Made by a program: the position numbers and the translations under genes. Shown one piece after another: positions 2,872 to 5,525 of a DNA stretch of 64,000 nt (position 1 is its first letter; every line of letters starts with the position of its first letter). The stretch covers positions 558,001 to 622,000 of the forward strand of contig NZ_LLWC01000022.1 in assembly GCF_001561995.1 (NCBI RefSeq). The letters run 5' to 3'. Under the pieces are notes generated by a model. It was given only the letters and a program-made list of their open reading frames with translations. It was not told the origin of the DNA and made no database searches. Source of the DNA: Polycladidibacter hongkongensis (GTDB lineage Bacteria; Pseudomonadota; Alphaproteobacteria; Rhizobiales; Stappiaceae).

Positions 2872-2933
2872 CAATAATGGCTCTGCATCAAACATATGCA
2901 GAGCCTTCATGGCGCTAGATGGGAGAAAGCGAT

Positions 2934-3845
2934 ATGCAGGGGCGGTCAATGGACTGGGATAAGCTGAGAATTTTTCATGCAGCCGCGCAGGCGGGCAGCT
3001 TTACCCATGCCGGCGAAACTTTGAATATGAGCCAGTCCGCTGTATCCCGTCAGGTCAGTGCGCTTGAAAGCGAGCTCGGCGTCTCGCTTTTTCACCGCCA
3101 TGCCCGCGGCCTAATCCTCACCGAGCAAGGTGAGTTGCTCTATCGCACCTCCCGCGAAGTCTTGATGAAGCTGGAGTCGGTTCAGGCCCGCCTAACCGAC
3201 ACCAAGGAAAAGCCATCCGGCTTGCTACGCATCACCACCACTGTCGGCCTTGGCTCGACGTGGCTGACGGCCCGTGTTAACGAATTCATCGATCTGTACC
3301 CAGATATGCGGCTGGAAATTATCTGTCAGGATGACGAGCTGGACTTGGGTATGCGCGAAGCTGACGTCGCTATTCGCCTGCGCCAACCAACCCAGCCAGA
3401 CCTGATTCAACGTAAACTCTTTACCGTGCACTTCCATGTATATGCTGCGCCTAGTTATCTAGAACGATTTGGCACCCCAAATTCTGCCGAGGATCTCGCA
3501 AACCACCGTATCATCACCATCGGCGACAACACGCCATCGTATTTGCGCGGCATGAACTGGCTAGAAACCACAGAGCTGCCAACCGGCGAACAACGCGACA
3601 TAGCCTTGAAGGTGAATAACCTTGTCGGCATCAAACGCGCCGTCCAAAAAGGCATTGGCCTTGCCATTCTGCCAGATTACATGGTGGAGTCTGATGCTGG
3701 CATCGTCCCGGTTATGTCGACCAAGGAAGAAACGCTGCCCTCTTTCGACACATATTTTGTCTATCCCTCGGAGCTGCGCAATACCGCGCGCGTCACCGCC
3801 TTCCGCGATTTCCTTGTTTCCTATGCCGAAAGATGGACACACTAG
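2934..3845 (+). CDS. lsrB: LysR-type regulator, LsrB/VtlR-like
   Basis: A LysR-type regulator of about 303 residues. The DNA-binding helix-turn-helix begins at MDWDKLRIFHAAAQAGSFT and includes SQSAVSRQVSALE. The effector-binding domain covers residues ~95-295. I prefer ATG 2934, which has GGGAG at 7-base spacing; ATG 2919 and 2949 are alternatives. Position directly after trxB and the N-terminal sequence suggest the conserved alphaproteobacterial LsrB (Sinorhizobium) / VtlR (Brucella) group, which controls envelope, redox and virulence traits. VtlR is known to activate the sRNA AbcR2. An AbcR-like sRNA lies ~250 bases downstream here, which supports the assignment. Only one cysteine is present, so a multi-cysteine redox switch is unlikely. 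Confidence 0.85.
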   Translation: MQGRSMDWDKLRIFHAAAQAGSFTHAGETLNMSQSAVSRQVSALESELGVSLFHRHARGLILTEQGELLYRTSREVLMKLESVQARLTDTKEKPSGLLRITTTVGLGSTWLTARVNEFIDLYPDMRLEIICQDDELDLGMREADVAIRLRQPTQPDLIQRKLFTVHFHVYAAPSYLERFGTPNSAEDLANHRIITIGDNTPSYLRGMNWLETTELPTGEQRDIALKVNNLVGIKRAVQKGIGLAILPDYMVESDAGIVPVMSTKEETLPSFDTYFVYPSELRNTARVTAFRDFLVSYAERWTH

Positions 3846-4033
3846 CCACGTCAGTGGTGGAATAACTATCCACATAGTAATGTATGCCAAAGGCAATGCG
3901 AGGCCGCAAAGCCCCGCAAGCAATGTATTCAATACCTAAATATTCAAATTTCCCCTAAGGCAACAAAGACTTGCCGGAAGATTACCGCGACATCCTGCCC
4001 TATCGTCAATCGATCTTCACTGGTATACCGTAA

Positions 4034-4052
4034 TTGCATATCTGCATTGCAA
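4034..4052. promoter_or_regulatory. Candidate LysR-type operator upstream of the sRNA
   Basis: A perfect inverted repeat, TTGCA-N9-TGCAA. It lies ~28 bases ahead of the predicted -35 hexamer of the downstream sRNA, where LysR-type activators usually bind. The nearest regulator gene is the LsrB/VtlR-like gene just upstream. Binding is inference. Confidence 0.45.
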
Positions 4053-4061
4053 AAAAGTTCC

Positions 4062-4094
4062 TTGAACCAAGGAGAATGCACTGCATATATGCAG
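4062..4094 (+). promoter_or_regulatory. Predicted promoter of the AbcR-like sRNA
   Basis: TTGAAC (4062-4067) could be the -35. A -10 of type ATATAT (4085-4090) follows at 17 bases. The -10 lies inside the perfect palindrome CTGCATATATGCAG (4081-4094), which could also be an operator. Transcription would start near 4096-4100. Confidence 0.45.
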
Positions 4095-4096
4095 CA

Positions 4097-4230
4097 GCTG
4101 TTGATCAGCGAGGCACAACTCTCCTCCCTGTGGCTCGCATCTGATCAGCTGTTCCCCTCTGGAAGGTGATTGCACCAAAACTCTGGTGTTTATCAATTAG
4201 ACTGCCGGGCCTTTGGCCCGGCTTTTTTTT
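4097..4230 (+). ncRNA. Candidate AbcR (alpha-r15) trans-acting small RNA
   Basis: A gene-free stretch with the layout of the AbcR/alpha-r15 family of Hfq-dependent sRNAs. The first hairpin pairs TGATCAG (4102-4108) with CTGATCA (4141-4147). It continues inward through CGAG/CTCG and CAC/GTG, leaving CTCTCCTCCCT exposed in the apical loop (4117-4129). That loop is an anti-Shine-Dalgarno sequence. A second pyrimidine patch, TTCCCCTCT (4152-4160), lies in the linker. A small CACC/GGTG hairpin (4173-4188) and a strong terminator follow. These RNAs are known to repress many ABC-transporter mRNAs by blocking ribosome binding. The 5' end is inferred from the promoter. Family membership rests on architecture and neighbour, not on an alignment. 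Confidence 0.72.
4204..4230 (+). terminator. Intrinsic terminator of the AbcR-like sRNA
   Basis: GCCGGGCC (4204-4211) pairs with GGCCCGGC (4215-4222) around TTT, followed by eight T. A very strong Rho-independent terminator with no coding gene in front of it, which itself argues for an RNA gene upstream. Confidence 0.92.
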
Positions 4231-4346
4231 GCCTATACTTCAATAAATTACGAACTTTGGCGCCGCTAATCTCGGCGGAGTACAAAAAGCAGAGCGCTGC
4301 CCATCCTGTTCATATATGAGCATAAGCACTCCAGTTGCACCCCGCC

Positions 4347-4384
4347 CAATTTCTAGGCACACGCTGTGCAATTTCTATGCACAC
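4347..4384. repeat. Tandem 16-base direct repeats, 22-base period
   Basis: Copies at 4347-4362 and 4369-4384 differ at one base (CAATTTCTAKGCACAC). Their spacing of 22 bases is about two helical turns, as for paired operator sites. The GCACA-CGC-TGTGC palindrome (4357-4369) bridges them. An AGGAGGG sequence and an ATG (4397) opening a 34-codon frame follow, but spacing is too tight and the frame runs antisense into msrP, so I do not call that gene. Confidence 0.45.
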
Positions 4385-4433
4385 AAAAAGGAGGGAATGA
4401 GCAAGCTACAGTTAAAAGTAAAAGTTCCTCCAT

Positions 4434-5399
4434 CTAGCGATAAAGCGCTTCACCTTCCATATGCTTGTAAAGGTGCGCAACATACTTACCATAGCCATTA
4501 AACAACTTTGTTGGCACGCGCTCACCACTGCCCAGTAGCCGCTCACTTGCCTGCGACCACCTCGGGTGCGGCACCTTGGGGTTTACATTCGCCCAAAATC
4601 CGTACTCATCACCCGCGATCTCTTGCCAAAAGCTCACAGGCCGCTCTTCAACAAAGGATATCTTGGTAATCCCCTTGATAGACTTAAAGCCATACTTCCA
4701 AGGCGTTACCAACCGAACAGGGGCGCCAAACTGTTTGGCAAGCGGCTTGCCATATATGCCAGTCGCAATGAACGCCAATTCATTTTGCGCCTCGGCCATG
4801 GAGAGGCCCTCCACATATGGCCATGGATACCAGAACTGGTTTTGCCCACTTGCTTGCGACGGGCGCTTAAACCCCTCTAAGCGCACATACCGTGCCCCCG
4901 ACAGTGGCCGCACCATCGCCACAAGGTCTTTGAGCGCGAACCCGCTCCACGGAACTGTCATGGCCCACGCCTCAACACAGCGATGCCGATAAACCCGCTC
5001 TTCCAGCTCCATTCGTTTTACCAACTGGTCCATATCGAGCTTGAGCGGCCGTTCAACCAAGCCATCAATCTCCACAGTCCACCCATCGATATCCAACCCT
5101 TGTGCCAAGGCTGCGATCTCTTTGTGAGAACCAAATTCGAAATAGTTATTGTAGTTTTTCGAAATACGCTCCGGCGTCAGACCTCGGCCAGCTTCATAGG
5201 CCTCGCTACGCACCGCAGGATAAGGCGTTGCTGCCAGTGCCTCGCTTGCCCCGGGTAAAAGCCCTGAGGCCAAAGCACCACCACCAATCGCGCCAAACCC
5301 CATGTGACGCAGCAGCTGTCGCCGGTTCAGATATACCTCTTCGGGAGTAACATCGCCTTCGTAATGACCAAATCTGTTTTTGTGTTTTAGCTGATGCAT
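4434..5399 (-). CDS. msrP: Periplasmic methionine-sulfoxide reductase, molybdopterin subunit MsrP
   Basis: MsrP (YedY) reduces methionine sulfoxide in periplasmic proteins with a Mo-molybdopterin cofactor. The 321-residue protein has a Tat signal (NRRQLLRHMGFGAIGGGALA, res 26-45). It also has the sulfite-oxidase fold with the molybdenum-binding cysteine at residue 141 (RHRCVEAWAMTVPWSG). The start ATG 5399 follows GAGGG at 5-base spacing. The usual haem-membrane partner msrQ, normally next to msrP, is absent on both sides, so electrons must come from an unlinked MsrQ or another donor. The molybdopterin genes moaD and moaE lie elsewhere in the window. Confidence 0.93.
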   Translation of the reverse strand: MHQLKHKNRFGHYEGDVTPEEVYLNRRQLLRHMGFGAIGGGALASGLLPGASEALAATPYPAVRSEAYEAGRGLTPERISKNYNNYFEFGSHKEIAALAQGLDIDGWTVEIDGLVERPLKLDMDQLVKRMELEERVYRHRCVEAWAMTVPWSGFALKDLVAMVRPLSGARYVRLEGFKRPSQASGQNQFWYPWPYVEGLSMAEAQNELAFIATGIYGKPLAKQFGAPVRLVTPWKYGFKSIKGITKISFVEERPVSFWQEIAGDEYGFWANVNPKVPHPRWSQASERLLGSGERVPTKLFNGYGKYVAHLYKHMEGEALYR

Positions 5400-5525
5400 G
5401 GGTCCCTCACTTTGCGATAACACTAAGCGATCACAAGGATAAACTCCAAATCAACAGCATGTGAGCAGCGCACAATGCTGCCGGAGCAAATGCCCCGACA
5501 GCAACCTGACAACAATTTTGGAAAC

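Follow-up and report, generated by a model that had tools for sequence, protein, structure and literature searches.

The question raised by this locus was what is encoded by the non-coding stretch at positions 4097-4230 (+ strand) of the window (the whole stretch of 64,000 nt that was analysed), for which an AbcR/alpha-r15-like sRNA next to an LsrB/VtlR-type LysR gene had been proposed in the initial annotation. The sequence elements quoted there were all found at the positions given for them. The stretch is a structured, conserved RNA gene orthologous to AbcR, and with a probability of about 0.93 it encodes the single AbcR (alpha-r15) trans-acting sRNA of this genome, which would be activated by LsrB, bound by Hfq and directed at the repression of transporter mRNAs. 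The structure and conservation of the RNA gene, its AbcR orthology, its motifs, the register of its box and promoter and its copy number were computed here. Evidence for the AbcR/alpha-r15 identity comes from the order of genes at the locus, the architecture of the promoter, the two targeting motifs, covariation in the structure and a series of homologs leading to ar15 RNAs that pass the Rfam cut-off.

The gene order in the window was an Lrp/AsnC-type regulator (272-817, - strand), an ELM1-like gene (905-1876, + strand), trxB for thioredoxin reductase (1906-2871, + strand), lsrB (2919-3845, + strand), the sRNA and an msrP-type gene convergent with it (4434-5423, - strand). The gene trxB, a conserved neighbour 5' of lsrB, was assigned by a match to NCBIfam TIGR01292 above its cut-off. 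The gene preceding the sRNA was of the claimed LsrB/VtlR type: its product, 308 aa in the ORF as listed, carries the Pfam domains HTH_1 and LysR_substrate, has as best PDB match 9HH1 (E 5.8e-121), the structure of A. tumefaciens LsrB (PMC11975290), and is 87% identical to a Pseudovibrio stylochi protein, the nearest named lsrB found. The matches of many relatives' LsrB begin at residue 7-11, and the true start of the protein may lie about 10 codons further in than the listed ORF start. The end of lsrB and the start of the sRNA are separated by 251 nt on the same strand.

The non-coding region ends, as had been described, in a textbook intrinsic terminator (4204-4230, + strand) composed of an 8-bp G+C stem with a 3-nt loop (4204-4222) and T8 (4223-4230). 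Folding of 4090-4231 gave -56.8 kcal/mol (z -4.1), better than 200 of 200 dinucleotide shuffles, which averaged -40.4 kcal/mol, and a scan of 3840-4440 on both strands returned 8 terminator-like sites versus 0.6 expected, three of the eight being one + strand hairpin. The fold showed the three-hairpin plan with a Rho-independent terminator; hairpin 2 was predicted in the window and is absent from the consensus structure. The anti-Shine-Dalgarno sequence claimed for the loop of hairpin 1 and the second pyrimidine patch were present as CTCTCCTCCCT at 4119-4129 and TTCCCCTCT from 4152, respectively. The two motifs proper are aSD1, CTCCTCCC at 4121-4128, in the loop of hairpin 1, and aSD2, TTCCCCTC at 4152-4159, between hairpins 1 and 2 (both + strand). 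They have the same letters as aSD1 and aSD2 of S. meliloti AbcR1/2, whose 8-nt motifs were shown by mutation to act, and were exact in 59/71 and 67/71 loci, respectively. AbcR is defined by two anti-Shine-Dalgarno motifs, a CU-rich one within the hairpin 1 loop and another (UUCCCCUC) 3' of that hairpin (PMC8844928, section 8), a definition that fits the window sRNA as well. An A/U-rich stretch 5' of the terminator (4188-4203, + strand) is a candidate Hfq contact; such a stretch has been described for S. meliloti AbcR (PMC3712013). In one RNA from an uncultured Pseudovibrio (L011:5226-5366) the second motif reads TTCCCCAATTGA instead of TTCCCCTCTGGA, and the remainder of the RNA looks intact.

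Covariation was assessed on 27 sequences and 26 pairs of the RNAalifold consensus with 500 shuffles. Paired cells amounted to 97.1% versus 89.4% in the shuffles, pairs with changes on both sides to 14 versus 7.5, and cells with changes on both sides to 68 versus 20.1. The observed pairing and double-change values were reached by 0/500 shuffles, and the number of further pair types by 43/500. When the partners were slid out of register, pairing went down to 27-46%. Support by changes on both sides was found for 10 of the 13 pairs of hairpin 1, namely 5/7 in its outer helix (4100-4106 with 4143-4149) and 5/6 in its inner helix (4111-4116 with 4130-4135), where the window sRNA has one G-G mismatch in the consensus register. 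All eight pairs of the terminator stem were kept in 27/27 sequences, and in four of these pairs both partners changed. The small consensus helix 3 around aSD2 is almost invariant and therefore has no covariation support.

The promoter was read against that of S. meliloti PabcR1, for which GCAT-N3-TG-N3-T at -61 to -49 and CTTGAC-N17-CTATAT are reported (PMC8844928, section 5). A predicted LsrB-binding box, GCATATCTGCATT, exact to the published pattern, lies at 4036-4048 (+ strand). Application of the published box position to it places +1 at 4097, the start given in the initial annotation, and the box at exactly -61/-49, as in an LsrB/VtlR-activated promoter. The window promoter reads TTGAAC-N17-ATATAT at 4062-4090 (+ strand), with a putative -35 element at 4062-4067, which varies in the promoter alignment, and a putative -10 element at 4085-4090; at 4084-4088 the letters C, A, T and T were invariant in 25 promoters, and the intervening A was almost invariant. 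A simple promoter scan found no sigma-70 site at the sRNA. The box stood in register with at most one mismatch in 70/71 loci (window included), in 33 with none, versus 0-13/71 at six shifted places, a count that is partly dependent, since the box itself had served to fix where the extracted RNAs begin.

By itself the box is frequent by chance (the window has 17, with 16 expected), so its weight rests on position and conservation. In the genome 20 matches to GCATNNCTGNNNTGC were found, 15 of which are crossed by an ORF of more than 100 codons. For the longer word TGCATANCTGCANTGCA, drawn partly from the abcR promoter, the two best genome matches both lie at this locus; the second, with one mismatch, is a box-like palindrome on the - strand (4077-4093) that overlaps the -10 element and ranks second of 131 genome matches at three mismatches or fewer. 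This palindrome is largely kept in the aligned promoters of Pseudovibrio, Pannonibacter and Roseibium. Elsewhere in the genome, an exact LsrB box, GCATAACTGACAT, lies outside long ORFs (L194:1647-2209, contig C1 at about 410.38-410.94 kb), starting 122 nt before a 72-aa ORF with no Pfam match, after which come three CTCCTCCC/CTCCCT-type motifs (an ar14 score of 30.8 bits, short of the cut-off); the locus looks similar to the small genes activated by VtlR in Brucella and Agrobacterium. The ORF behind one of the boxes not crossed by a long ORF was first read as DUF1127-type, and the name was dropped when Pfam gave it no support.

The box and promoter also bear on whether the structure is mainly the 3' end and terminator of the lsrB mRNA, in which case an sRNA would be either lacking as a separate transcript or released from this mRNA by cleavage. 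The sRNA lies on the lsrB strand, and the scan of 3840-4440 found no + strand terminator-like site between the two, so that transcription could read through from lsrB. Against such an origin, the sRNA has a conserved promoter of its own and an LsrB box in fixed register. Among the 71 loci with the sRNA on the lsrB strand it lies within 600 nt of lsrB in 64 and farther away, up to 3.6 kb, in seven; in two further loci (L061, L070) it lies upstream of lsrB on the opposite strand. The sRNA can thus move apart from lsrB, and its being chiefly the tail of that mRNA is held to be very improbable.

The AbcR reading was extended to relatives by a scan for LsrB, which gave 80 named loci, mainly of Pseudovibrio, Roseibium/Labrenzia, Stappia, Pannonibacter and other alphaproteobacteria. 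Candidate RNAs 3' of lsrB were extracted (64), 4/68 rows with no box within two mismatches having been dropped before alignment, and 27 of 42 non-redundant RNAs, mostly the closer ones, were aligned to build the covariance model R1; the ends of L013, L016 and L029 were corrected by hand, and the box picks of L029 and L051 look out of register. R1 recovered the sRNA with E values of up to 0.0013 in 73/81 lsrB loci including that of the window, a count in which 27 loci, the window among them, are those from which R1 was built. Weak matches were obtained in L062 (E 0.099) and L072 (E 0.078), and within the flanks searched no RNA was found by R1 in 6/81 loci (L021, L042, L063, L075, L077, L081).

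That the genome carries one copy, as had been noted from the window, was borne out genome-wide: the window sRNA scored 117.3 bits over positions 1-135 of 135 of R1, versus 26.5 bits for the next best match in the 3.74-Mb genome. In 25 of 25 family genomes searched with R1, many of which probably belong to species already represented in R1, the best match had 78-137 bits and no second one exceeded 33 bits. The 26.5-bit runner-up was rejected as a second copy, being by its letters the end of a coding sequence plus a terminator; the runners-up that were inspected, four in all (two at G000:C12, one each at G007:C86 and G007:C76), were by their letters coding-sequence ends or gene-side stretches with a terminator. 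A second ar15 match in the genome (L002:1501-1567, 23.5 bits) was likewise set aside; it coincides in part with the 3' end of a codirectional 468-aa ORF and is absent among the matches listed for R1.

A covariance-model search, named in the initial annotation as its check, agreed with it in family and extent but not in score. At gathering scores Rfam returned nothing in the window. In a permissive Rfam search of 3846-4433, ar15 (AbcR, RF02345) was the best-scoring of the 13 matches listed and was matched over its full length (1-112) with 26.6 bits (E 0.0023), below the gathering score of 40. Taken alone this result would look weak, because the ar15 model scores the Pseudovibrio-side clade below its cut-off: of 61 genomes searched with ar15 (this one and its relatives) one passes, a member of the same order in which three copies score 112-127 bits, and 0/37 genomes of this family do so. 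At the same locus in relatives, the RNAs of six of the 16 loci given to Rfam passed the ar15 cut-off (L057, L064, L069, L071, L073, L080). Canonical tandem ar15 copies (L085/L113), with ar15 scores of 127 and 119 bits, were matched by R1 with 35.9 and 32.4 bits, and their locus (L191) has the order trxB, lsrB, sRNA, sRNA with an exact LsrB box 5' of the first sRNA, which matches the gene order in the window. The Pseudovibrio RNAs below the cut-off and the rhizobial RNAs above it form one positional and sequence family, since they are linked by R1 and by locus order. On the basis of the six passing relatives and of R1 joining both groups, the score below the cut-off was read as a limit of the Rfam model.

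Other Rfam families were weighed as well. An sRNA of the ar14/NfeR1 type or of the CcsR type, likewise directed against Shine-Dalgarno sequences, would be distinct from AbcR; NfeR1/ar14 is an LsrB-activated anti-Shine-Dalgarno sRNA in S. meliloti (PMC10746234). The ar14 model also matches the window sRNA weakly (20.2 bits), and in L075 and L077 an RNA with three CTCCTCCC motifs lies behind an LsrB box, that of L077 scoring 49.4 bits with ar14. On the window sRNA, however, ar15 outscores ar14, and better ar14 matches lie elsewhere in the same genome (57.2 and 43.3 bits). The motif set is one CUCCUCCC and one UUCCCCUC, the AbcR pair, whereas the separate NfeR1/ar14 family carries three identical CUCCUCCC motifs. 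Assignment to one of these types in place of AbcR is accordingly regarded as most unlikely.

In the two loci just named (L075 at about 4960-5140, an Ahrensia MAG, and L077:5016-5149, Oricola), the three-motif RNA stands behind lsrB and the box in the place of AbcR, which looks like a replacement of AbcR by an NfeR1-like RNA; the ar14 cut-off is 58.8 bits. In the window genome four ar14-like matches, with 57.2 to 30.8 bits and none reaching the Rfam cut-off, were recorded at G000:C2:76802-76927 (-), C33:19411-19526 (-), C36:139172-139316 (-) and C1:410782-410938 (+). The 2-kb sequences surrounding the C2 and C36 copies contained no exact LsrB box, and for the C33 copy none was seen on its own strand.

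The probable LsrB-AbcR circuit at this locus was examined from the side of the regulator. C144 and C273 are conserved in LsrB of A. tumefaciens, S. meliloti and B. abortus; a change of C273 raises peroxide sensitivity and a change of C144 alone is without effect (excerpts of PMC11975290). In the alignment to 9HH1, the positions of C144, C236, C244 and C273 of Agrobacterium LsrB are occupied by V, V, I and V in the window protein, which accordingly has no C144/C273 redox-sensor pair. Among 82 aligned LsrB sequences C144 is Cys in eight and C273 in six, and the sampled proteins of Pseudovibrio, Roseibium/Labrenzia, Stappia and Pannonibacter have none of the four cysteines. A lone cysteine at another position is present in ten of 11 Pseudovibrio LsrB proteins, L013 being the exception. 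The C144-C273 disulfide proposed for Agrobacterium is impossible in the window LsrB because the cysteines are absent. The compact local circuit of the initial annotation stands as far as the probable driver of the sRNA is concerned, but not with a disulfide of the Agrobacterium type. With all four cysteines missing, the input to the circuit probably differs from that in Agrobacterium.

The same absence could be taken to mean that AbcR has escaped LsrB control in this strain, the missing cysteines having been linked to the activity of Agrobacterium LsrB (function in excerpts of PMC11975290). The box is nevertheless exact, in register and kept across relatives, most of whose LsrB also lack the cysteine pair, and a loss of control is considered unlikely. 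A wider proposal for the Pseudovibrio/Roseibium clade is offered tentatively and is considered rather unlikely: LsrB without the redox pair would receive a different input, the single AbcR would cover the roles of the LsrB-driven and RpoH1-driven copies of S. meliloti, and the palindrome at 4077-4093 would let LsrB both activate and limit abcR. If this proposal were true, the cysteine switch would be a rhizobial add-on and not the original signal.

From the elements described above we infer the transcription of the sRNA, its LsrB dependence, its Hfq binding and its targets as follows. LsrB from the adjoining gene would bind the box at 4036-4048 and activate transcription starting at 4097, giving a transcript of 134 nt that ends at 4230. 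Hfq would probably be bound via the A/U-rich stretch and the U tail. The sRNA would then pair CUCCUCCC or UUCCCCUC with ribosome-binding sites and repress the translation of target mRNAs, many of which would code for periplasmic binding proteins of ABC transporters.

The last step was assessed with 43 ABC-transporter binding-protein genes (SBP), assigned by Pfam match to five families, against a background of 333 ORFs, taken from the window and from 20 segments of 20 kb each. Start codons were set by a simple rule, with signal peptides used for the SBP genes only, and no SBP start was in the background. The word test that was relied on used the published motifs and not words picked from the list of pairing energies. 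At least 6 nt complementary to aSD1 were found in 13/43 SBP genes versus 26/333 background ORFs (p 9e-5), and to aSD2 in 7/43 versus 14/333 (p 0.005); the 16S anti-SD control words gave 5/43 versus 23/333 (p 0.2). By their N-termini, the ten PF13407 genes include LacI-type regulators, and the test was therefore repeated without all ten, with the same outcome (aSD1 11/33, aSD2 7/33 and 16S control 5/33; p 0.0001, 0.0012 and 0.094, respectively). Permuted words did as well in 2/27 cases for aSD1 and in 10/55 for aSD2.

Raw pairing energy differed between SBP genes and background with p 0.007 for the aSD1 segment and p 0.15 for aSD2, and 0/30 shuffles differed as much for either. The stronger Shine-Dalgarno sequences of SBP genes (16S control p 2e-4) partly account for the aSD1 enrichment in pairing energy, which after Shine-Dalgarno regression was not significant (aSD1 p 0.21, aSD2 p 0.86); among strong-SD genes only, p was 0.02-0.07 for aSD1 and 0.27-0.85 for aSD2. 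As a target signal, the motif enrichment in transporter genes is suggestive. The role as repressor of transporter mRNAs, part of the initial annotation, is carried over to the window sRNA as a predicted function, with this sequence test as suggestive evidence.

AbcR is known from soil and plant-associated relatives as a down-regulator of nutrient-uptake genes. In the literature searched, which was mostly without subscription papers (possibly among them a 2018 review of Rhizobiales AbcR cited in PMC7143759), no description of AbcR in Pseudovibrio was found, nor one of AbcR1 in Stappia, Labrenzia or Roseibium among the papers listed, and the papers on Pseudovibrio and sRNA were, judged by title, unrelated. 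With the present locus, a well-studied nutrient-uptake circuit known from symbionts and pathogens of plants is extended to marine bacteria, in which the standard RNA library scores the sRNA below its cut-off. Single-copy genomes are simpler for finding the role of AbcR, as there is no redundant twin, and with the cysteines absent from LsrB, the circuit's need for redox sensing can be put to the test.

In comparison with known systems, the locus has in common with S. meliloti LsrB-AbcR1 (alpha-r15, RF02345) the position at the side of lsrB, the box at -61/-49, the three-hairpin plan, CUCCUCCC and UUCCCCUC, the A/U stretch and the terminator. It differs in copy number, with one strong copy in place of the tandem AbcR1/AbcR2 (a second, RpoH1-type copy as in S. 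meliloti was not found in the genome by the R1 search), in length, with an estimated 134 nt versus 121 and 114, and in a sequence that has diverged from the S. meliloti type to below the Rfam cut-off. In A. tumefaciens, VtlR/LsrB directly activates an AbcR gene (PMC7486931); that system shares with the window the LsrB relative seen in 9HH1, and the four cysteines are present on the Agrobacterium side only. For Brucella, the published VtlR motif CAATGCAGCCATGCA agrees by eye, on the other strand, with window 4035-4049 at 13/15 positions, while abcR2 is one of two copies there and VtlR also drives DUF1127 genes (excerpts of PMC12595884). The sRNA at 4097-4230 joins the known AbcR family as an additional member, ordinary in kind and useful in detail.
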